38,307 bases of DNA from the NCBI GenBank assembly GCA_040905475.1, contig JBBDRM010000039.1:7128-45434 (forward strand), written 5' to 3'. Both the position numbers and the translations under genes were made by a program. Origin of the DNA: Actinomycetota bacterium (GTDB lineage Bacteria > Actinomycetota > AC-67). This document shows, in pieces, positions 2,699 through 37,601 of this stretch (the first letter of the stretch is position 1; the number at the start of each line of letters is the position of its first letter). The notes beneath the pieces were generated by a model. That model searched no databases and was not told the DNA's origin. It was given only the letters and a program-made list of their open reading frames with translations.

Positions 2699-5230
2699 TC
2701 AGGGGGTGTCGGTTCTGGCTTTGATTCCTTCTTCGGTGATCGGGGTGATTCGGTCGTAGAGGGTGGTGCGTTGGGCGGGGAGGCGGTTGATGGCGCGGAT
2801 GGCTTCGTTGAATTGGGTGGGGGCCATGCGGATGCCGTGGGAGGCGCCGGCCATGCGGGAGATCGTTTCTTCCATGAGGGTTCCGCCGAAGTCGTTGCAG
2901 CCGCTCCGGAGCATCAGCTGGGAGCCTTCCACCCCGAGCTTGACCCACGAGACTTGGATGTTGGGGATCGCCTCGTGAAGCAGGATGCGCGCGAGCGCGT
3001 GCATGCGACGGTTCTCATCGGTCGTCGGGCCCGGGCGCGCTTTGCCGGCGAGGTAGATCGGAGCGTTCTGATGCACGAACGGAAGCGGGACGAACTCGGT
3101 GATGCCGCCGGTGTCTTCCTGGATCCTCCTGATGCGACGGAGATGCGCCACCCAGTGCGGCGGTGCATCGACGTGGCCGTACATGATGGTGGAGGTGGAG
3201 CGGATCCCCAGCGAATGCGCGGTGCGGATGACTTCTTCCCACGTATCGGCCGGGAGCTTGCCCTTCGTCAGCACCCATCGCACTTCATCGTCGAGGATCT
3301 CCGCCGCGGTTCCCGGCGTCGATCCGAGCCCGGCGTCGCGCGCTTCGGTGAGCCACTCGCGGAACGAGATCCCCAGCCGCGCCGCGCCGTTCATCACTTC
3401 CATGGGGCTGAACGCATGGATGTGCATCTCCGGCACGCGCGCCTTGATCGCGCGGAGGATCTCGAAGTAATGATCGCCCGGCAGATCCGGGTGGATGCCA
3501 CCCTGGATGCAGACCTCGGTCGCGCCGTACGCCCAGGCCTCCTCGGCCCGGCCGGCGACCTCGTCCAGGGATAGGAAATACGCATCGGGGTCCACGCGCC
3601 GCTGGGCGAACGCGCAGAAACGGCAACCGACATAGCAGATATTGGTGAAGTTGATGTTGCGATTCACGACGTACGTCACGACGTCGCCGACCGCGTCCCG
3701 GCGCAAACCGTCTGCGATGCGGCAAAGTGCGTCGAGGTCTTCCCCCCTCGCGTCGAAGAGCGCGAGCGCGTCCGCGTCGTCGACCGGTATCCCCTCCGAC
3801 GCCCGCGCCAGGGCCGCGCGGATCTCGCTCGGCGCACGGCGGGGCGACGAGCGCCATGCGCGCGAGAGATCGACCTCGAGCGCCTCCCAGCTCCCGTGGA
3901 TCTCCGACGTGTCGTCGCGGAGGCCGCGGCTCAGCTCCACATGTGAGGCGGCGTCGTCCTCGATCGAGCGCATCGCGCCACCCATGGCTGCCTGGGGCAC
4001 GACGTCAGGCTCCTGCCAGGCGACGCCGCCGGCCCGGGCGCCGGCGCGGGCGAAGCCGTCGGGATCGGCGAGCGCCTCGACGGCGGCCGTGACGCGACCG
4101 TGCAGCCACGGGTCCGGCCGGAGCGCATAGTGCGGATACACCGTCAGCCGCGGCCGGAGCTCGTATCCGCGCTCCTCGGTCGCGCGGCGGAGGCGTTCGA
4201 GGTTCGGCCAAGGCTTCTCGGGGTTCACGTGATCCGGGGTGACCGGAGACACGCCGCCCCAGTCGTTGATCCCGGCATCGAGCAGTCTCGGGAAGTCGTC
4301 GTCGGACAGGTTCGGCGGCGCCTGGAGATTCGCGCGCGGCCCGAGCACGAGTCGTGCGACCGCGATCGCCGCGAGGAACTCGTCCTCGCCGGGGTCGGGA
4401 TGCCTGGACATCGGCGTCGCAGGCTTCGCGCGGAAGTTCTGAACGATCACTTCTTGAACGTGCCCGTACTTGCGCGATAGCTCGCGGATCGCGAACAGCG
4501 ACTCGGCGCGCTCCTCGAGCGTTTCTCCGATGCCGACGAGGATGCCGGTGGTGAAGGGGATCGCCAGCCGGCCTGCGTCCTCGATGGTTCGAAGACGAAC
4601 CGAAGGCTTCTTGTCGGGCGAGCCGTAGTGAGCCGCGCCGGGTGTCGCGTAGAGCCGCTCGGAGGTCGTCTCCAGCATCATGCCCATGCTCGGTGCGACC
4701 GGCTTCAGCCGCATCATCTCTTCCCACGACATGACGCCGGGATTGAGGTGCGGCAGCAATCCGGCTTCCTCGATGACCGCGATCGCCATCGCGCGGACGT
4801 ACTCGAGCGTCGTCGTGTAGCCGCGCTCCGCCAGCCAGGCGCGGGCCTCAGGCCAGCGCATCTCCGGCCGGTCGCCGAGGGTGAAGAGCGCCTCGAGGCA
4901 GCCGGCTCGCTGCCCCGCCCGCGCGATGTCGAGTACCTCCTCCGGCGAAAGGTAGGGAGCGGCGAGCCGGTCGGGCGTCGTCGCGAACGTGCAGTAGCCG
5001 CACCGATCACGGCACAGGCGCGTGAGCGGGATGAAGACCTTCGGGGAGTAGGTGACGACGCGACCGACGCCTGCGTCTCGGACCCGTTGCGCGACCGAGA
5101 GTAACCGGTCGAGATCCTCGCCGCGAGCCGACAGCAGCGCCGCCGCCTCTTCGACAGAAAGGACTTTGCCGTCCTCCGAACGATGGAGCGATCGGCGGAT
5201 CTGGTGCGCGAGGTCGGTCACGGTCGGCAC
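2699..5230 (-). CDS. fbiC: FO synthase, fused CofG-CofH (FbiC)
   Basis: Builds FO, the deazaflavin chromophore of coenzyme F420, from 5-amino-6-ribitylaminouracil and tyrosine using two radical-SAM modules in one chain. The N-terminal CofG half has the cluster motif CRDRCGYC, with Cys73, Cys77 and Cys80. The C-terminal CofH half has CYVGCRFC, with Cys532, Cys536 and Cys539. Both are CX3CX2C. The 843 residues match the roughly 850 expected for actinobacterial FbiC. The GTG at 5230 is preferred; a second GTG nine bases downstream (5221) is possible, and a GTG at 5311 would add a tail unlike the family and overlap fbiA. It is divergent from fbiA, with about 100 bp shared upstream. Family assignment is secure; only the start is uncertain. 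Confidence 0.97.
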
Positions 5231-5252
5231 GCGAGGCCGGGCATCGCGGCGG

Positions 5253-5258
5253 AGCCTA
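5253..5258 (-). promoter_or_regulatory. Possible -10 box of fbiC
   Basis: TAGGCT on the minus strand would place transcription start near 5245, giving a leader of about 15 nt to the GTG at 5230. No good -35 hexamer is visible. Confidence 0.3.
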
Positions 5259-5322
5259 CCACGGTGCCAACCGGCCGGTGACCGGGTCTCACCCGCGGTG
5301 GCGGAGGCCACGCACCGGCGGC

Positions 5323-5328
5323 CATACT
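5323..5328 (+). promoter_or_regulatory. -10 box giving a leaderless fbiA mRNA
   Basis: CATACT ends six bases before the GTG start at 5335, so transcription would begin at or next to the start codon. No Shine-Dalgarno sequence precedes that codon. Confidence 0.45.
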
Positions 5329-5334
5329 CGACCG

Positions 5335-6291
5335 GTGATCGTCGTACTCGCCGGTGGCGTGGGCGCCGCCCGGTTCCTCCGGGGGGTGGTTCGGTCTGTG
5401 CCGCCGGGCGAGGTGACCGTCATCGGAAACACCGGTGACGACTTCATCGTGTACGGCGTCCACGTGTCGCCCGATCTCGACATCGTGACCTACACGCTCG
5501 GCGGTGCGATCAACGACGCGCGCGGATGGGGGCTGGCCGGCGACACGCACGGACTGCTCGAGGAGCTGCGCAGTCTCGGCGTCGACGCCTGGTTCACGCT
5601 CGGCGACCGGGATTACGGAGTCTGCCTGTTCCGGACGCTCGCGCTGTCGGCAGGCCAGACCTTGTCGGATGTGACCGCGCGGATCGCGGAGCGCTTCGGC
5701 GCCGGGATCCGGTTGCTCCCGATGACCGACGCGGCGGTTGCGACGCACGTCTCGGTCGCGGACGAGGACGGCCGCGAGCGCGACCTGCACTTCCAAGAAT
5801 ACTGGGTCCGGCGCGGTGCGCGCGACGACGTCAGGGCCGTCAGGCTCGTCGGCGCCGAGAACGCGCGGCCGGGGCCGGGCGTGCTCGAGGCGATCGCGTC
5901 CGCCGACGCGGTCCTGATCGCGCCGTCGAACCCGGTGGTTTCGATCGGCACCATCTTGACGGTGCCGGGGATCCGCGACGCGATCCGCGAAACGCCCGCC
6001 CCGGTCGTGGGGGTCTCCCCCATCGTCGACGGCGCGCCGGTGCGCGGCATGGCTGACAAACTGATGCCGTCGGCCGGCGCCGAGGTCTCGGCGCTCGGAG
6101 CCGCCCGGCTCTACCGCGATGTGCTCGACGGCTGGGTGATCGATCTCCTCGACGCGAACCTCGGGCAGGTGATCGCCTCCGAGCTCGACGTCCGCGTCGA
6201 GGTCGCGCAGACCTTGATGCACACGGTCGAGGACGCGACCGCGCTCGCGAAAGTGACGCTGGATCTGGCCGAGGCGCTCGCAACGGACTGA
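5335..6291 (+). CDS. fbiA: FbiA/CofD, 2-phospho-L-lactate-type transferase for F420
   Basis: Transfers the phospho-lactyl or enolpyruvyl group from its GDP-activated donor to FO, giving F420-0 or its dehydro form. The 318-residue chain begins directly with the nucleotide-binding signature [11 protein letters not shown] (residues 7-17). It continues with GNTGDD (31-36), LGDRDYG (89-95) and PSNP (197-200), all typical of CofD. The GTG at 5335 gives the family's usual N-terminus; an upstream in-frame ATG at 5278 would add 19 atypical residues. There is no Shine-Dalgarno sequence, and a -10 box ends six bases upstream, suggesting a leaderless message. It is followed by fbiB after 26 bp. FbiD/CofC, which makes the activated donor, is not in this window. 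Confidence 0.96.
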
Positions 6292-6303
6292 GTTCGGTCC
6301 ACG

Positions 6304-6309
6304 TACACT
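6304..6309 (+). promoter_or_regulatory. -10 box giving a leaderless fbiB mRNA
   Basis: TACACT ends eight bases before the ATG at 6318 in the 26-bp gap between fbiA and fbiB. No Shine-Dalgarno sequence is present, so fbiB may be transcribed from its own start as well as from fbiA. Confidence 0.45.
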
Positions 6310-6317
6310 CGACTGCG

Positions 6318-7616
6318 ATGCGGATCGAGATCATCCCCGTCGAAGGGCTGCCCGAGATCGGACCGGGCGCCGACCTCGCGACGCTCATCGCGGATCATTC
6401 ATCCGTCCGCGACGGCGATGTGGTGGTCGTGACGTCGAAGGTCGTATCGAAAGCCGAAGGAAGGCTCGTCGAAATCGACCCAACCGACCGGGAGCGCGCT
6501 CGCCGGGAATGGGCGGAACGGGAGACCGTTCGCGTCGTCGCGCGGCGTGGAGACCTCGTGATCGCGGAGACCGTGCACGGATTCGTGTGCGCCCACGCCG
6601 GCGTCGACGGCTCCAACGTGCCGGCGGATCGGATCGCGCTCCTGCCGATGGATCCCGACGGCAGCGCGGAACGCCTCCGGCAAGGGTTGAAAGCGCGTGG
6701 GGCCGCCGCGGGGATCGTGCTCAGCGACACGTTCGGCCGCCCGTGGCGCGCCGGGCAAACGAACGTCGCGATCGGCGTCGCCGGCCTTGCGCCGATGCGG
6801 GACCATCGCGGCGAGAAGGACGTGTTCGGCACCTTGCTCGAGGCGACCGTGATCGCGGTCGCCGACGAAGTCGCATCCGCCGCCGAGCTCGTCATGGGCA
6901 AGAACGACGGGATCCCCGTCGCCATCGTTCGTGGCCTTCCGGCCCGATGGCTCGGAGCCGGCAGCGCCCGAGAGCTCGTGCGGCCACCCGACGAGGATCT
7001 GTTCCGCACCGGAGTCATCGAGGCGGTCGAGGCCCGCAGATCGATCCGCACGTTCTCGACCCGCGCGGTTCCGAGAGACACGATCGAGCGCGCCGTGGCC
7101 GCCGCCGCAACGGCCCCGGCACCCCACGGATCACGCGCGGCGCCCCCGTGGAAGTTCGTCTGGCTCCGCAACGAAACACCGCGCGGCCGGTTCCTCGACG
7201 CGATGGAGCAGGCCTGGCGACGTGATCTGATCGACGACAAGGTCCCCTCGGGGAAGATCGACCGGGCGATCGCGCGCTCCCGGAGGCTCCTCGGAGGGGC
7301 GCCGGTCTTGCTCGCTTGCTTCGTCTCGCTCGCAGGGGCCGACCCCTACACCGACGCTCGCCGCTTGCTGGCCGAACGCGAGATGTTCCTGAGCGCAGCC
7401 GGAGCGAGCGTTCAAAATCTGATGCTCGCTCTGAACGCTCAGAGTGTCGCCTCCTGCTGGCTGTCGACCAGCATCTTCTGCAGCGACGAGGCGGCCGGCG
7501 CGCTCGGCATCGACAGCGATTGGCAGGCGGTGGGCTGCGTGGTCGCCGGTTTTCCCCTCGAAGGGCCCGCGGCCCGAGGCGCGATCGACCCCTCGGCCTT
7601 CCTGGATATCCGGTGA
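6318..7616 (+). CDS. fbiB: FbiB: F420:gamma-glutamyl ligase fused to FMN reductase domain
   Basis: Bifunctional last enzyme of F420 synthesis, 432 residues against about 448 in mycobacteria. Residues 1 to about 228 are the CofE ligase that adds glutamates to F420-0, shown by VVTSKVVSKAEGR (38-50), SDTFGRPWR (136-144) and MGKNDGIP (193-200). Residues from about 233 to the end form a nitroreductase-fold flavin domain opening with EARRSIRTFS. In mycobacterial FbiB this domain reduces dehydro-F420-0. This fusion is characteristic of actinobacteria, while archaeal CofE lacks the second domain. The ATG at 6318 has no Shine-Dalgarno sequence and fits a leaderless start. Confidence 0.96.
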   Translation: MRIEIIPVEGLPEIGPGADLATLIADHSSVRDGDVVVVTSKVVSKAEGRLVEIDPTDRERARREWAERETVRVVARRGDLVIAETVHGFVCAHAGVDGSNVPADRIALLPMDPDGSAERLRQGLKARGAAAGIVLSDTFGRPWRAGQTNVAIGVAGLAPMRDHRGEKDVFGTLLEATVIAVADEVASAAELVMGKNDGIPVAIVRGLPARWLGAGSARELVRPPDEDLFRTGVIEAVEARRSIRTFSTRAVPRDTIERAVAAAATAPAPHGSRAAPPWKFVWLRNETPRGRFLDAMEQAWRRDLIDDKVPSGKIDRAIARSRRLLGGAPVLLACFVSLAGADPYTDARRLLAEREMFLSAAGASVQNLMLALNAQSVASCWLSTSIFCSDEAAGALGIDSDWQAVGCVVAGFPLEGPAARGAIDPSAFLDIR

Positions 7617-7641
7617 CCATGCCGGCCTGCGGGGGCCGTGC

Positions 7642-7647
7642 TATAAA
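7642..7647 (+). promoter_or_regulatory. -10 box giving a leaderless mRNA
   Basis: TATAAA, five of six matches to TATAAT, ends eight bases before the GTG at 7656. No Shine-Dalgarno sequence intervenes, and a clear -35 element is lacking. Confidence 0.5.
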
Positions 7648-7655
7648 AGCCCCTC

Positions 7656-8399
7656 GTGGCAGACAAGAGGGCAACGAAACGAGAGCGTCGCGACGACGCT
7701 AAGCGCCGCCGTTTGGAAGAGTTGCGTCGCCGCCAGCGGCAGGCGCGCCTTCGCAAGCTGGCGATGGCCGGCGTGGCGGGACTCGTCATCGCCGGGATCG
7801 TGGCGCTGGCCCTTCTGCTCGGCGGTGACGAGAACAGCGAAGCGTCCAACAGGCTCGCCGCGGCCGCGGGATGTGAGCCGGTCGAGAACCCAGCGCTCCT
7901 TGCGGTCGACCATATCCAGCCCCCTGCTACGGCGACCTACAACACGAACCCGCCGACGTCTGGGAACCACTACAACGCGCAGGGACTTGGACCGATCACA
8001 ACCGGCATTCATCGCGCGGTCGTCCAATACGAGGGGTCTGTGCACAACCTCGAGCACGGCCACGTCGTCATCTACTACAAGGAGTCGGTTGGACCGGCGA
8101 TCGCCGCCATACTCGCGGAAGTGGTTCGCAGCGACCCGAACTGGATCATGCTCGCACCCGCCCACTCGGACATGCCTTCTCAGGTCGCGTTCACCGCGTG
8201 GGGCCACATCCAGGAGTGCAACACACCGAACGAGCAGGGGCTGAAGGCCGCGGCCGAGGACTTCGTGGAGCGTTTCCGCGACAACGCGCCGGAATCCGCG
8301 CAGGGAACCCCTGAGCCCGGCACCGACTCGGCCGTGCCGCCGACGACCGCAACCCCGACCGGTTCCGCTTCGCCGAGCCCGTCGCCCACCAGCACCTGA
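7656..8399 (+). CDS. DUF3105 membrane-anchored protein
   Basis: Predicted 247-residue protein. It has a very basic N-terminal cytoplasmic tail (1-34), one membrane segment (about 36-56), an extracellular DUF3105 domain and a Pro/Ser/Thr tail from about residue 215. Diagnostic DUF3105 strings are NPPTSGNHY (98-106) and HNLEHGHVVIYY (130-141). These His, Asn and Glu residues look like a metal or active site, but the biochemical function of the family is unknown to me. The GTG start fits a leaderless message from the TATAAA box upstream. It converges on the GHMP kinase gene with a gap of four bases. It follows fbiB after 39 bp, but nothing links it to F420. Confidence 0.88.
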   Translation: MADKRATKRERRDDAKRRRLEELRRRQRQARLRKLAMAGVAGLVIAGIVALALLLGGDENSEASNRLAAAAGCEPVENPALLAVDHIQPPATATYNTNPPTSGNHYNAQGLGPITTGIHRAVVQYEGSVHNLEHGHVVIYYKESVGPAIAAILAEVVRSDPNWIMLAPAHSDMPSQVAFTAWGHIQECNTPNEQGLKAAAEDFVERFRDNAPESAQGTPEPGTDSAVPPTTATPTGSASPSPSPTST

Positions 8400-28796: not shown

Positions 28797-28853
28797 CTGG
28801 CACATCCGCCGCAGCCGGGCGGTCTCGGCGTTGAACCCACCTGGGAGGTGCGC

Positions 28854-29066
28854 ATGAAGGCGGTTCGTGAGCGTGGGACGATCGGATCCCTTCTGTTCGT
28901 CCTGATCCTCGCAGCCGTTTCCGGCTCGGCATACATCGATGCGGGATCCGGAAGCTACATCTTGCAGCTCGTCATCGGGGGAGCCGTCGGCGCAGCCATG
29001 GCCGTCGTCGCGTACTGGCGTCGCATCCGCGCAGCAGTAGGTCGCCGCCTGTCGCGCAAGGGCTGA
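28854..29066 (+). CDS. Small two-helix membrane protein with YIDAGSGS motif
   Basis: A 70-residue protein with two membrane segments (about 10-27 and 33-53) and a basic C-terminus. The loop AYIDAGSGSYILQLVIGG matches a small-protein family whose hallmark is Y(L/I)DPGTGS. Members are often found beside sulfatase-like and glycan genes, and their function is unknown to me. The ATG at 28854 follows GGGAGG by seven bases; a GTG six bases earlier is less well placed. The stop overlaps the next start (TGATG). Confidence 0.8.
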   Translation: MKAVRERGTIGSLLFVLILAAVSGSAYIDAGSGSYILQLVIGGAVGAAMAVVAYWRRIRAAVGRRLSRKG

Positions 29067-30454
29067 TGCCGGTCGAACGTCTCGGGGGATCATTCCGAGA
29101 CCCCGCCGGCTTCGTCTTCACCCGTGACGGCGTTCTCCTCCGCCAGATCAACGAGCTCCACCGCGAGCACTGGGAACGTTTCCTTTCCTCCGACCTCCAC
29201 GATGCCCTCGTCGAACGCGGGCTCATGGTTGCCTCCGAGGACGCGCCTCTCGATCGTGCCGCGGCGCCGGGCGCGTACAAGGTGGTCCGCCCCGAGCCGA
29301 TCCCGTTCATCTCCTATCCTTACGAGTGGTCGTTCGGCCAGCTGAAAGCCGCCGCGCTGGCCACGCTCGAGATCCAGGGCCTCGCCCTCGACCACGGGAT
29401 GTCGCTCCGCGACGCGAGCGCATACAACATCCAGTGGCTGCGGGGGAAGCCCGTTCTGATCGACTCGCTGTCCTTCGAGATCCTGCGCGAGGGGGAGCCG
29501 TGGGTGGCCTATCGTCAGTTCTGCCAGCACTTCCTGGCGCCGCTCGCGCTCGTGGCGCACGTCGACGTCCGGTTGCAGCAGCTCCTCCGCATCCACATCG
29601 ACGGGATCCCGCTCGACCTCGCCAGCGAGCTCCTGCCGAAGCGTTCGCGCATGAAGCCCACACTGATGCTCCACATCCACGCGCACGCGAAGAGCCAGAA
29701 GCGCCACGCGAGCGACGACCCGAAAGCTTCCGCCAAGGGCCGTTCGTTCGGGATGCGCGCCTTCCGGGGCATCCTCGCGAGTCTCGCCTCGGGCATCCGC
29801 GGGCTGGAATGGGATCCGCCCGAGACCGTGTGGACGGACTACTACTCCGACGCCGGCAGCTACACGCAGGAAGGGACGGAGCACAAGCGCATGCTCGTCT
29901 CCAAGTTGATCGAGGAGGTCGGCCCGGCGAGCGTGTGGGATCTCGGCGGCAACGTCGGCACGTTCGCACGGATCGCGTCCGAGAAGGGGATCCCGACCGT
30001 CTGCCTCGAGATGGATCCCGGTTGCGTCGAGCAAGCGTTCCGTGACGCCGTCGTCGGCGCCGGAGACACGAACTTCCTGCCGCTGCTGATGGACCTCACC
30101 AACCCCAGCGCGCGCATCGGCTGGCAGAACACCGAACGGTTCTCGCTCGCCGACCGCGGCCCGGTCGATCTCGCGCTGGCGCTGGCGCTCGTCCATCACC
30201 TGGCGATCGGCAACAACGTTCCGCTGGGACGGGTGGCCGAGTTCTTCGCCGAGCTGTGCCGGTCCTTGATCATCGAGTTCGTGCCCAAGAGCGACCCCAA
30301 GGTGAAGATCCTGCTCACCTCGCGCGAGGACATCTTCTTCGACTACACGATCGACGGGTTCGAGCGCGCGTTCTCGCAACGGTTCAGCATCGAACGACGC
30401 GAGAGCGTCACCTCGTCGGAACGCACCCTGTTCCTCATGCGGAGGAAGGCGTGA
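29066..30454 (+). CDS. NoeA-like protein: kinase-like region plus SAM methyltransferase domain
   Basis: A 462-residue protein resembling nodulation protein NoeA-type methyltransferases. The C-terminal half is a class I methyltransferase with motif I DLGGNVGT (292-299) and a following acidic LEMDPG. The N-terminal half contains SLRDASAYNIQWLRG and then VLIDSLSFE. The spacing Asp116-x4-Asn121-x11-Asp133 copies the catalytic loop and metal-binding Asp of protein or aminoglycoside kinases, suggesting a kinase-like fold, though this is my inference. It is coupled to the small membrane gene upstream (TGATG) and the sulfatase-like gene downstream (GTGA). A role in glycan or lipid modification is likely from context. 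Confidence 0.82.
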   Translation: MPVERLGGSFRDPAGFVFTRDGVLLRQINELHREHWERFLSSDLHDALVERGLMVASEDAPLDRAAAPGAYKVVRPEPIPFISYPYEWSFGQLKAAALATLEIQGLALDHGMSLRDASAYNIQWLRGKPVLIDSLSFEILREGEPWVAYRQFCQHFLAPLALVAHVDVRLQQLLRIHIDGIPLDLASELLPKRSRMKPTLMLHIHAHAKSQKRHASDDPKASAKGRSFGMRAFRGILASLASGIRGLEWDPPETVWTDYYSDAGSYTQEGTEHKRMLVSKLIEEVGPASVWDLGGNVGTFARIASEKGIPTVCLEMDPGCVEQAFRDAVVGAGDTNFLPLLMDLTNPSARIGWQNTERFSLADRGPVDLALALALVHHLAIGNNVPLGRVAEFFAELCRSLIIEFVPKSDPKVKILLTSREDIFFDYTIDGFERAFSQRFSIERRESVTSSERTLFLMRRKA

Positions 30455-32055
30455 GTGATCCGGAGGCGGAGCCCGGCTCGATCGGGCTCGGCGATAAGCC
30501 TCGCCGCCCTCAGATCCCGCTCTACCCGATCCTCTTCGCCGCCTTCCCCGTCCTCCATCTGTTCCGCACCAACCTCGACGAAGTGTCCACCGGCCAGGCG
30601 CTCGGGCCGCTCGGGCTCATCGTGGGTGGCGCGCTGGTACTGCTGGCGCTCGGCTGGCTCGTGCTCCGGGATGTCCGGCGCGCGGGCCTCATCGTCACGC
30701 TGTTCCTGCTCCTTTTCTTCTCGTACGGCTACGTCGCCGACGCGGTCGCGAGCTGGGATGTCGCCGGGGTGGCGATCGGCCGGGATCGTTACGTGCTCGC
30801 GCTGTGGGCGCTGCTCCTCGTGGGCGGTGGTTATCTCCTCCTGCGCGTGCGCCGGTCGCTCCCCGACGTCACGAAGATCCTCAACATCGTTGCCACCGCG
30901 CTCATCGTGACGAGCGTCGTTCCGATCGCCGCCGACAAGCTCGGCGGACCGGCAGAGATCGGCGCGGCGTCCCAACCGTCGATCACCGCGACGCGCCGGG
31001 AAGCCGCCAACGACAAGCGGGACATCTACTACATCAACTTCGATCGGTACGGCGGTGAGGAGTCCTTGCAGGCCTACTTCGACTTCGACAACCGCCCGTT
31101 CCTGAGCACGCTCGAGTCGAAGGGGTTCGTCGTCGCGCACGACGCGCACGCCAACTATCCGAACACCGCCCACTCGATGACGTCGATGCTCAACATGACC
31201 TACCTCGACGAGGTTGCGAAGCAGGTGGGAACCTCAGGCGATTGGACGCCCCTGTACGGGATGCTCAAGCAGCACCGGGTCGGGAGCTTCCTCAAGTCGC
31301 AGGGCTACCGCTACGTGCACGTCGGCTCGTGGTTCGAGCCGACGCGGACGAACCCGCTGGCCGACCTCAACGTCACGTACGACCCGCTGTCGGAGTTCTC
31401 CCGCACCCTCCTCGAGACCACACCGCTCGAGCCGCTCTCGAAGGCCTTCGGATTCGGGGACGACAAGCTCGATCCGCGACGCGTGGCGTGGGCGCGGGTG
31501 TTGTTCCAGCTCGAGCAGCTCGTTCGCGTGGGGAACGACGGGAAGCCAACCTTCGTGCTCGCGCATATCATCATGCCGCACGAGCCCTACGTCTTCGAGC
31601 GCGACGGCGGCTTCCTCAGCCAAGAGGATATGAAGCGGCGACACTGGCATCGGAACTATCTCGAGCAGCTGATGTTCGCGAACGCGATGATGACGAAGGT
31701 GGCGGATCGACTGCTGGCCGGGCCGGACGCCTCCGACCCGATCATCATCTTCTCGTCGGACGAGGGGCCGCCCCCCGGTAGCGACACGGCGAACCCGAGC
31801 GACGATCCGACCTCATGGGTGAGCAAGACCCCTCGCCAGCTGCGTCAGAAGTTCGGGATCCTCGCGGCCTTCCACCTTCCCGGCATCGCCGACCCGGGGA
31901 TCTCCCCGTCGATCACGCCGGTGAACTTCTTCCGCAAGGTGCTCTCGCTCTACCTCGGCGCCGATCTCCCGCCGCTCGCCGACAAGAGCTTCGTTTGGAC
32001 CGACAAGGACCACCTCTACGATCTCATCGACGTGACCGGCAAGCTGACTTCCTGA
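30451..32055 (+). CDS. Membrane sulfatase/alkaline-phosphatase-superfamily protein
   Basis: A 534-residue protein with about five membrane helices (roughly 24-40, 53-73, 78-98, 113-131, 143-160) and an extracytoplasmic hydrolase-like domain. The metal-binding start is YYINFDRYGG (193-202). The nucleophile region NTAHSMTSMLNM lies at 238-249. IIMPHEPYVF and SSDEGPPPG (Asp437-Glu438) supply further expected ligands. The usual Asp-His-Gly of sulfatases reads Asp-Glu-Gly. Such proteins can transfer phosphoglycerol or phosphoethanolamine, or hydrolyse sulfate or phosphate esters, on surface glycans. The GTG at 30451 overlaps the previous stop and follows GGAGGA. Confidence 0.86.
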   Translation: MSDPEAEPGSIGLGDKPRRPQIPLYPILFAAFPVLHLFRTNLDEVSTGQALGPLGLIVGGALVLLALGWLVLRDVRRAGLIVTLFLLLFFSYGYVADAVASWDVAGVAIGRDRYVLALWALLLVGGGYLLLRVRRSLPDVTKILNIVATALIVTSVVPIAADKLGGPAEIGAASQPSITATRREAANDKRDIYYINFDRYGGEESLQAYFDFDNRPFLSTLESKGFVVAHDAHANYPNTAHSMTSMLNMTYLDEVAKQVGTSGDWTPLYGMLKQHRVGSFLKSQGYRYVHVGSWFEPTRTNPLADLNVTYDPLSEFSRTLLETTPLEPLSKAFGFGDDKLDPRRVAWARVLFQLEQLVRVGNDGKPTFVLAHIIMPHEPYVFERDGGFLSQEDMKRRHWHRNYLEQLMFANAMMTKVADRLLAGPDASDPIIIFSSDEGPPPGSDTANPSDDPTSWVSKTPRQLRQKFGILAAFHLPGIADPGISPSITPVNFFRKVLSLYLGADLPPLADKSFVWTDKDHLYDLIDVTGKLTS

Positions 32056-32065
32056 TGGATACCTG

Positions 32066-32260
32066 ATGGCGAAGCCCGCCCGACGGTCCCGACCCCGGCG
32101 CGTCATCCGGGCGATCGTGCTCCGGACGCCCGTGTTCGGCGATCTGCTCCGCGAGCGCACCATGCTGCGCGTCCAACGCCGGGCGCTGCTTCAGGACGCC
32201 GAGAATCTCCGGATCGCCGTGGGGCAGCTCCTCACGGAGGTGCACAAGCTGAAGAAGTGA
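32066..32260 (+). CDS. Small basic protein of unknown function
   Basis: A 64-residue, strongly basic protein (MAKPARRSRPRRVIRAIVL) with a C-terminal helix that could form a short coiled coil (LRIAVGQLLTEVHKLKK). No family is recognised. The start lies 10 bases after the sulfatase stop; between them is a three-codon frame ATG GAT ACC TGA whose stop overlaps this ATG, so reinitiation may be used. It converges on the large glycosyltransferase gene with a 12-bp gap. Confidence 0.6.
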   Translation: MAKPARRSRPRRVIRAIVLRTPVFGDLLRERTMLRVQRRALLQDAENLRIAVGQLLTEVHKLKK

Positions 32261-35747: not shown

Positions 35748-37415
35748 TCAGCGGCCGGGAACCGGCCGGGCGACGACGAGCACGATGTCCCCGAGCCACC
35801 CGAACGGGATGCGGGGGTCGGCGACGGACGCCAGCCCCCGCACGGCGCGCGCGACCTTCTCGTTCTGCCCTTCCATCCGGCCGGCGACGTACGAGAGCTT
35901 GAACGACCGGGGCGCGACCTCCCACTGGACCATCCGGAAGCCGGCGCGCGAAAGCATCTCCGACAGCGTCTCGGGGGCGAAGTAGTGAAGGTGCGAGCGG
36001 ATGAACCACGGCCAGGTGCGCCCGCGCAGCCGGGAGTGAAGCCCGTCCACATTGACGGTCGAAAGCACGAGCATGCCTTCTTCGTCGGTGACACGCCGCA
36101 GCCGCCGGAGCGCGGCGAGCGGATCGCTCAGATGCTCGAGCACGTCGAGCATCACGATCGAGTCGGCGCTGCCGGGTGCGTCGGCGAGGTCCTCGATCGT
36201 GCCCTGGCGGAGGTCGACGCCGAAGCGCTCGACGCCCTGCTCGACCGCCCACTTCGAAGGTTCGATCCCGCGCGCCTCCCAGCCGTGCTGCCGCGCGACG
36301 TCGAGGAAGACCCCCATGTTCGAGCCGACCTCGAGCAGCTTGCGGCCGCGCGCGACGTAGCCTTCCATCGCGCCGGCGATCCACGAGAAGAGCTCCCGGC
36401 GGCCGGCCTCCTCGATGAGGTACTCCTCGTCGACGACGCGGCGGTAGCCCTCGATGATGTCCTCGCCGCCGATCGTCGGAACGGCCGAAACCATCCGGCA
36501 GCGGCGGCACTGAACGATGTCGTCGTGGCTCGACAGAGCGCTCGTCGTGCACGCGAACTCGCTCACCGGCACGTCCCCGTGCGCGGTCGCGCGATAGACG
36601 AGGACCTGATCGTTCGCCCCGCAGAGCGCACACGCGCGCTCGACCTCGGGCCCGTCGCCGAGCTTGCGAGCCTTGCGGCGCTTCGCCGCGACGGGGTACC
36701 GGCTCCCGCGGCGACCGCGCTCCCCGAACCGCTTCGAGGCGTACCCGACGCTTCCCGTGACGTACTTCAGCGAGCGCGACACCGAGATCGACGACGACTC
36801 CTTGGTATAGCGCGTCGGGATCGGGACCTCGACCACGCGCTGACCGGAGGTGACCGCGTCGATCAGGAACTGCGAGTCGAACATGAAGTCGTCGGAGTAG
36901 CTCCGGAACGGCATCGAGAGCAGGCACGTGCGCGTGTAGGCGCGCAGGCCCGAGTGCATGTCGGTGAACCGCGCCCCGAGCAAGAGGTTCTCTACGGTCG
37001 TCGTGAATCGGTTGCCGAGGTACCGGTACAGCGGCATCCCGCCGCCCATCGGGTCGCCGAGCCCGGCGAACCGCGACCCGAAGGTCATGTCGGCGTCGCC
37101 GGCCAGGATCGGCGCGATCAGCAGCGGCACCGCCTTGGGGTCGTACTGGTAGTCGGGATGCAACAGCACGATGACATCGGCGCCTGCGCGAAGCGCCTCG
37201 GCGTAGCAGGTCTTCTGGTTGCCGCCGTAACCACGGTTGACCTCGTGGACGTGGACCTCGATCCCGAGGTCGCGGGCGAGCTGCACGGTCTGGTCGGAGC
37301 TCGCGTCGTCCACCAGGATGAGCTGATCCGCGACGCCGGCCGGGATGTCGGCCACCGTCTTCGCGAGGGTTGCCTCCGCGCGGTAAGCGGGAAGCGTGAT
37401 GACGACCTTGGGCAA
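35748..37415 (-). CDS. GT2 glycosyltransferase fused to zinc-motif methyltransferase
   Basis: A 555-residue fusion. Residues 1 to about 225 are a GT2 domain of the polyprenyl-phosphate glycosyltransferase kind, with LPAYRAEATL, LVDDASSDQT and HPDYQYDP as the metal-binding site. Residues about 262-310 carry two CxxC pairs (CALC at 262-265, then CRRC), as in zinc-motif C-methyltransferases of deoxysugar pathways. The rest is a class I methyltransferase with LEVGSNMGVFLD and MLDVLEHLSDP. The TTG at 37415 follows GGAG by five bases and gives a normal GT2 N-terminus; the open frame extends 54 residues further without a family match. A TAACAT box (37450-37445) is a suitable -10. Confidence 0.88.
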   Translation of the reverse strand: MPKVVITLPAYRAEATLAKTVADIPAGVADQLILVDDASSDQTVQLARDLGIEVHVHEVNRGYGGNQKTCYAEALRAGADVIVLLHPDYQYDPKAVPLLIAPILAGDADMTFGSRFAGLGDPMGGGMPLYRYLGNRFTTTVENLLLGARFTDMHSGLRAYTRTCLLSMPFRSYSDDFMFDSQFLIDAVTSGQRVVEVPIPTRYTKESSSISVSRSLKYVTGSVGYASKRFGERGRRGSRYPVAAKRRKARKLGDGPEVERACALCGANDQVLVYRATAHGDVPVSEFACTTSALSSHDDIVQCRRCRMVSAVPTIGGEDIIEGYRRVVDEEYLIEEAGRRELFSWIAGAMEGYVARGRKLLEVGSNMGVFLDVARQHGWEARGIEPSKWAVEQGVERFGVDLRQGTIEDLADAPGSADSIVMLDVLEHLSDPLAALRRLRRVTDEEGMLVLSTVNVDGLHSRLRGRTWPWFIRSHLHYFAPETLSEMLSRAGFRMVQWEVAPRSFKLSYVAGRMEGQNEKVARAVRGLASVADPRIPFGWLGDIVLVVARPVPGR

Positions 37416-37444
37416 GGGAGCTCCGAGCCGATCTCGACGTTCCC

Positions 37445-37450
37445 ATGTTA
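37445..37450 (-). promoter_or_regulatory. Possible -10 box of the GT2-methyltransferase gene
   Basis: TAACAT on the minus strand places transcription start near 37438, leaving a leader of about 22 nt containing the GGAG that precedes the TTG at 37415. Confidence 0.4.
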
Positions 37451-37601
37451 GCCCGCCCCGCAGCACGAGGACGGAACCGGGCGTAGCAAGGGGGCGTACG
37501 GGACACGAGCTGTTAGAGTTGCTCAGGGTGGCATACCACCAGCGTCGACACTCGTACACGATCAGTATCTCCCCCATCTTCGACTCGTACAGGGCTTGCG
37601 T

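Follow-up and report, generated by a model that had tools for sequence, protein, structure and literature searches.

A small YLDPGTGS-motif membrane protein conserved with NoeA/NoeB-type enzymes in a putative envelope-glycan modification module

The nodL-noeA-noeB operon and the related locus of an Actinomycetota genome

In Sinorhizobium meliloti, nodL-noeA-noeB is said to be a host-range operon described by Ardourel in 1995, the year in which noeA and noeB were reportedly named as host-range genes. Where they deal with this operon, published accounts give it as nodL, noeA and noeB, with no small gene among them (PMC9048898, PMC10945364, PMC4053727); two of these sources treat it as a host-range operon (PMC9048898, PMC4053727), and strain M162, with a truncated noeA, is reported to leave 17 of 27 Medicago truncatula genotypes without nodules (PMC4053727). 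The Lani_1194 family is described as a kinase joined to an S-adenosylmethionine (SAM) methyltransferase, flanked, among 816 neighbourhoods, by Lani_1193 in 65% and by the NoeB-type Lani_1195 in 38% (neighbourhood passage of PMC9758233). A further bifunctional enzyme, WbdD, is described as the O-antigen chain terminator of Escherichia coli O9a, which phosphorylates and then methylates the glycan end (PMC3482155). Here, a compact group of four genes is analysed, located at positions 28854-32260 of a stretch of 38,307 nucleotides (the window) from contig JBBDRM010000039.1 of an Actinomycetota bacterium. The first three genes, encoding a small membrane protein, a NoeA-like enzyme and a NoeB-type enzyme, almost certainly represent a real and widespread unit, conserved across phyla. 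The genes are the following:

28854-29066, forward strand: gene 1, 70 amino acids, small membrane protein of the YLDPGTGS family, whose own motif is YIDAGSGS
29066-30454, forward strand: gene 2, 462 amino acids, cytoplasmic NoeA-like protein, putative bifunctional kinase-methyltransferase
30451-32055, forward strand: gene 3, 534 amino acids, GTG start, five-helix membrane enzyme of the alkaline phosphatase superfamily, probable counterpart of NoeB
32066-32260, forward strand: gene 4, 64 amino acids, basic protein, probably coding

Genes 1 and 2 overlap in TGATG, genes 2 and 3 in GTGA, and gene 4 follows gene 3 after 10 bases, exactly as described in an earlier interpretation made from the letters of this DNA only (hereafter, the sequence-only reading). 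A Shine-Dalgarno-like sequence, GGGAGGTG, was recognized by eye ahead of gene 1, at 28843-28850.

The comparison with S. meliloti revealed the same relative order, i.e., small gene, noeA, noeB. On pSymA, the genes run nodL, a reading frame of 71 amino acids encoding a YLDPGTGS protein, noeA and noeB; gene 3 is a distant relative of NoeB, which the gene 3 profile detects with E 4e-20. The 71-amino-acid frame is located at 4757-4972 of the pSymA locus L088 (CP140953.1), with the same coordinates in locus L089, also from S. meliloti; it overlaps the annotated start of noeA, and the annotation of CP140953.1 has it only as hypothetical. These sequence relationships suggest that the 71-amino-acid protein, a component pointed out here, may be encoded by a fourth gene of the nod box n5 operon. 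The two loci differ in that the S. meliloti operon includes nodL, whereas the unit of the window is surrounded by polysaccharide genes and has no nodL. The Lani_1194 family, in turn, shares with gene 2 the putative pairing of kinase and methyltransferase domains and has conserved neighbours likewise; the passage describing it contains neither the small motif protein nor its fusions or NoeA-free copies, and Lani_1193 may or may not be that protein (PMC9758233). Hence, the sequence-only reading, which knew of no established name for such a combination, has to be corrected, since the unit has the noeA/noeB arrangement of S. meliloti and neighbours of NoeA have been reported (PMC9758233). From this perspective, noeA and noeB represent a single case of a module that occurs in many phyla; in the literature consulted, the function of the two genes is still just hypothesized.

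Conservation and co-occurrence of the three genes

The scan of contigs from one genome per species with gene 2 disclosed at least 579 encoding stretches, the best-scoring 80 of which were kept, a set biased to near relatives. According to the record titles, the carriers among these 80 include Chloroflexota, Planctomycetes, Armatimonadetes, Zixibacteria, Bacteroidetes, the archaeon Methanoculleus, and others. A profile search placed the small gene immediately upstream of noeA, in the same orientation, in 82 of 92 loci, some of which are redundant (L002 and L009 correspond to the same place, in one genome or near copies, the two S. meliloti loci have been mentioned, and both L010/L013 and L046/L050 seem near-identical). 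As for the ten loci lacking it in that position (L005, L007, L011, L012, L019, L022, L024, L030, L076 and L091), four (L011, L019, L022, L024) have less than 300 bases upstream, being near contig ends, and three (L012, L030, L091) have the small gene at another place of the locus.

The same association emerged from 695 sampled genomes, with NoeA in 64, the small protein in 67, both in 62, and the two genes adjacent in 60. For NoeA, the small protein, both and adjacent genes, respectively, the counts are 34, 36, 32 and 31 in the 296 genomes of the window's phylum (Fisher p 4e-36), 25, 26, 25 and 24 in the 201 genomes of the phylum including locus L012 (p 5e-31), and five in each case in the 198 genomes of the phylum including locus L020 (p 4e-10), where these p values refer to genomes that are not phylogenetically independent. 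NoeA is found without the small protein in two of the 695 genomes, one with a partial match (G037) and the other with the gene at a contig end (G182), and the small protein is present in 46 of 47 further NoeA genomes. The sequence-only reading had proposed a shared task for these genes and had staked it on their co-occurrence outside this genome; genes 1 and 2 do co-occur widely in the 695 genomes, and the 62 genomes shared by 64 with NoeA and 67 with the small protein are strongly in favour of the proposal.

Of 80 loci, 43 encode a gene 3-type enzyme directly downstream of noeA; the figure is 41 among the 77 loci where noeA is followed by 600 nucleotides or more. In five more loci (L014, L021, L038, L062, L087), a larger protein follows noeA, matching PF00884 by name in two cases; in the flanking set, the number of members matching PF00884 is exactly five. 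Overall, the small protein and NoeA constitute a near-invariant core and gene 3 is its usual third member. In a Mantel test on 33 loci, the distances of NoeA and gene 3 are correlated with r 0.71, those of NoeA and the small protein with 0.48, and those of gene 3 and the small protein with 0.43, values that include species relatedness and therefore count little. In L026 (9456-10445), and at comparable positions in other loci from Anaerolineales, noeA is followed not by gene 3 but by a conserved membrane protein of some 330 amino acids; the L026 copy has no Pfam match.

Fourteen copies of the small protein are not adjacent to NoeA, 13 of which were examined (that of genome G280 was left out). 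In 12 of these 13, a protein of the alkaline phosphatase superfamily adjoins the small protein or shares its reading frame. The two are encoded by separate genes in L123, L124, L125, L126 (two copies), L128 and L166 (divergent), as well as in L156 and L157, where the partner belongs to the PF01663 (phosphodiesterase-type) branch; L123:345-2244 is located on contig C111 of the window's own genome, where a paralogue of the small protein is thus paired with a gene 3-type enzyme in the absence of noeA. In L130, L131 and L132, the small domain is fused to the alkaline-phosphatase-fold enzyme, the L131 fusion being judged by its likeness to L130, given a weak gene 3-type score (0.029). The L132 fusion (3640-7770, reverse strand) is a single frame of 1377 amino acids joining the small domain, the alkaline-phosphatase-fold enzyme, a YidC-type domain and a CDP-glycerol glycerophosphotransferase (TagF-like) domain, the last of which falls just under the Pfam cut-off. 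The YidC-type and CDP-glycerol glycerophosphotransferase domains adjoin the fusions in L130:1825-6070 and L131:81-4077. In the thirteenth copy, that of L012, the small protein is separated from noeA by one gene, whose product presumably resembles NeuB (as read by eye from the sequence). The pairs with a PF01663 protein (L156:5274-7268 and L157:5013-6998) carry a variant small protein, with MYIDPNTGG.

Features of the three proteins

Gene 1. In the alignment of 63 relatives, Y27, G33, S34 and Q38 are invariant, and D29 and W55 nearly so. The motif is placed as follows:

28932-28955, forward strand: YIDAGSGS motif, residues 27-34 of gene 1, directly after a signal-peptidase-like SA-Y site (putative cleavage)

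An Ala residue immediately precedes the motif in 62 of 85 relatives, and the hydrophobic stretch ahead of it is missing in 29 of 85 (with start codons picked by script); on this basis, a signal peptide is the best reading of the first hydrophobic part. Thus, gene 1 probably encodes a signal peptide and one membrane helix, with the motif outside and a basic stalk or tail inside, a topology likelier than the two helices originally suggested. The family, defined here, is covered by no Pfam or NCBIfam entry, and a PDB sequence search with it gave no useful match (best 0.093).

Gene 2. The gene 2 product and S. meliloti NoeA are full-length homologues, with 36% identity along 99% of the query. The putative kinase residues R26, D116, N121 and D133 are invariant in 63 of 63 family sequences, and so are the SAM-binding D292, G294, N296, G298 and D317. 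According to PMC9758233, in the part concerning this family, and to residue spacing, D116, N121 and D133 correspond to D166, N171 and D184 of PKA, and R26 is an Arg replacing K72. The similarity to NoeA and these residues, which agree with the initial description of gene 2 as NoeA-like, indicate a NoeA-type kinase-plus-methyltransferase. The C-terminal half corresponds to a class I SAM methyltransferase domain:

29819-30451, forward strand: methyltransferase domain of gene 2, residues 252-462, where the listed chains align (Z 16.4-18.5)

WbdD tops the Foldseek list obtained with the AlphaFold2 model (predicted local distance difference test, pLDDT, 93). In the structure comparison, ChlM (Z 18.5), NodS (18.0), a methylphosphate capping enzyme (18.0) and WbdD (16.7 over 184 residues, root-mean-square deviation, rmsd, 2.8) all align on residues 251-462, with scores close to one another, and the presence of phosphate methyltransferases among these matches to a model is suggestive of phosphate methylation. 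WbdD combines kinase and methyltransferase in one protein, as predicted for gene 2, but in the order methyltransferase, kinase, coiled coil, which is reversed in gene 2, whose methyltransferase is C-terminal; to our knowledge, WbdD has no small partner. No kinase appeared in the structure-match lists of gene 2, which the methyltransferase domain may simply fill, and a PDB sequence search with NoeA gave no useful match (best 0.045, mostly methyltransferases).

Gene 3. The gene 3 product matches PF00884 (Sulfatase, E 5.4e-9), and its AlphaFold2 model (pLDDT 89.5) has five membrane helices within residues 25-165 and an outer domain at residues 168-534 with the alkaline phosphatase fold, so that its original designation as a sulfatase-fold protein holds. 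MCR-1, EptC and EptA are among Foldseek ranks 1-4; MCR-1 and EptA align over the full chain, but with an rmsd of 14.7. In a second structure comparison, EptC scored Z 23.4 (rmsd 3.7, 301 residues), and YejM and sulfatases scored near 21. Two motifs were located:

31153-31194, forward strand: nucleophile motif NYPNTAHSMTSMLN, with T239 of gene 3 (T in 41 of 42 aligned sequences, S in one)
31759-31767, forward strand: metal motif DEG, residues 437-439, replacing the usual DHG (D437 in 42 of 42; residue 438 is H in 36, E in five and T in one)

T239 was assigned as the nucleophile from its motif and its place in the chain order rather than from a superposition; D198, H372, H377 and D437 are invariant in the 42 sequences. 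It is known that sulfatases carry a Cys or Ser nucleophile in a CxPSR-like motif. A true sulfatase was ruled out for gene 3, which has an NYxxT motif and no Cys/Ser motif. Since Thr is found where sulfatases have Cys or Ser, phosphotransfer is likelier than sulfate hydrolysis, and gene 3 would more likely encode a phosphotransferase of the EptA/LtaS kind, as far as motifs and the model indicate. EptA, EptC and MCR-1, as well as LtaS and LtaP, share with it the membrane helices, the outer alkaline-phosphatase-fold domain, the Thr nucleophile and the metal ligands; they differ from it in sequence (about 10-14% identity), in the DEG of the window and in the regular small partner of gene 3. With the kinase, methyltransferase and Thr residues, the putative catalytic positions of the module are defined.

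Proposed function and alternative explanations

On the whole, genes 1-3 might constitute a NoeA/NoeB-type module that modifies an envelope glycan or glycolipid on both membrane faces, a mechanism to which we assign a probability of about 0.45 and whose substrate, reaction and contacts we infer. The cytoplasmic NoeA-like protein would phosphorylate a membrane-linked sugar and would also methylate it, perhaps on its phosphate, as in WbdD. The single-span small protein, with the motif outside and the basic tail inside, would hold NoeA at the membrane and dock the gene 3 enzyme through YLDPGTGS; it is placed with the inner NoeA because of their near-universal pairing, and with the outer enzyme because of the fusions and the NoeA-free pairs. 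Outside, the gene 3 enzyme would then pass a phospho-substituent on to the glycan, with a lipid as the donor. The small protein and NoeA might operate alone in the absence of gene 3, and so might the small protein and a gene 3-type enzyme in the absence of NoeA. A broader and quite tentative proposal is that the YLDPGTGS protein is a one-helix coupler between a cytoplasmic kinase-methyltransferase and an outer phosphotransferase, around which a new class of trans-membrane glycan-decoration machines is built. Such machines would be usable whole or as either half and would occur in bacteria and archaea; rhizobia would have borrowed the protein, as the unrecognised fourth gene of nodL-noeA-noeB. 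The kinase-methyltransferase, its NoeB-type neighbour and a conserved second neighbour, Lani_1193 (possibly the small protein, possibly not), were already known in 2022 from the account in PMC9758233. A search of open-licence literature gave no account of the YLDPGTGS motif and its family, of the fusions, of the NoeA-free pairing or of the small gene in the nod operon.

Some observations weigh against the module as proposed. No alkaline-phosphatase-fold gene is located directly after noeA in 31 of the 77 loci with at least 600 nucleotides downstream; therefore, gene 3 is optional. The window itself belongs to the DEG-for-DHG subgroup (five of 42, with its nearest relative L009, L018, L022 and L074), whose metal chemistry may differ. 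WbdD matches gene 2 in the methyltransferase part alone, where many methyltransferases score equally; in addition, the kinase half has no Pfam kinase support, apart from one of 63 members (RIO1, at 0.069). Lastly, flanking genes are mixed, without a strong glycan enrichment, the commonest glycosyltransferase family accounting for four of 111 flanking proteins (out of 156, in loci of up to 57% guanine plus cytosine (GC), with many Anaerolineales proteins dropped as repeats). The idea of a glycan-decoration module, already present in the sequence-only reading, is consistent with the glycan genes surrounding the unit in this window, but many genomes have it outside glycan clusters.

The alkaline phosphatase fold suits hydrolases and transferases equally, and some small copies adjoin PF01663 phosphodiesterase-type genes (L156, L157); hence, NoeA might add a phosphate or methyl-phosphate that a gene 3 phosphodiesterase or phosphatase removes outside, the small protein tying the two together. 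This appears improbable, given that the Thr nucleophile and the five-helix membrane part match phosphotransferases such as EptA and that small/gene 3-type pairs occur without an adjacent NoeA. The small protein might instead be the substrate, with the gene 3 enzyme modifying its invariant outward Y-D-(S/T)-S-Q face and NoeA modifying its tail or an attached lipid. The extreme conservation of the motif in 85 sequences and the near-obligate linkage to NoeA would fit; nevertheless, the fusion to the enzyme in L130-L132 suits a subunit better, and there is little likelihood of such a role. It is similarly doubtful that the target of the module is a secreted signal and not the envelope, as has been proposed for Nod factors of rhizobia, where nodL-noeA-noeB is a host-range operon (PMC9048898, PMC4053727): the carriers span many bacterial phyla and archaea and, judging from record titles, are mostly not known plant symbionts, so that the Nod factor cannot be the general substrate. 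Finally, these might be ordinary neighbours in a polysaccharide locus, with overlaps due to genome compactness, as the glycan genes of the window and the lack of relatives of gene 4 would suggest. For genes 1-3, this explanation is refuted by the constant order in which they recur in different phyla (for genes 1 and 2, p as low as 4e-36) and by natural fusions of gene 1-type and gene 3-type sequences; it stands for gene 4 only.

Gene 4 looks coding, because its GC content by codon position (0.77/0.44/0.91) resembles that of genes 2 and 3 (about 0.66/0.43/0.90). It has no accepted family and no relative at E<=0.01 in 40 other genomes, which rules it out as a member of the unit in which it had been included; in the nearest relative of the window, no similar frame follows gene 3 in the short stretch before the contig end. 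Around the unit, the window is a surface-polysaccharide locus, with glycosyltransferases, a UDP-GlcNAc 2-epimerase, a YfhO-type membrane protein, a UDP-sugar dehydrogenase and methyltransferases. A defence system and a phage origin were also ruled out, since PADLOC gave just a weak methyltransferase match (mad2, E 0.0003) and no PHROG match was obtained. Elsewhere in the window, at 35751-37577 on the reverse strand, a family 2 glycosyltransferase and a methyltransferase domain are joined in a single reading frame.

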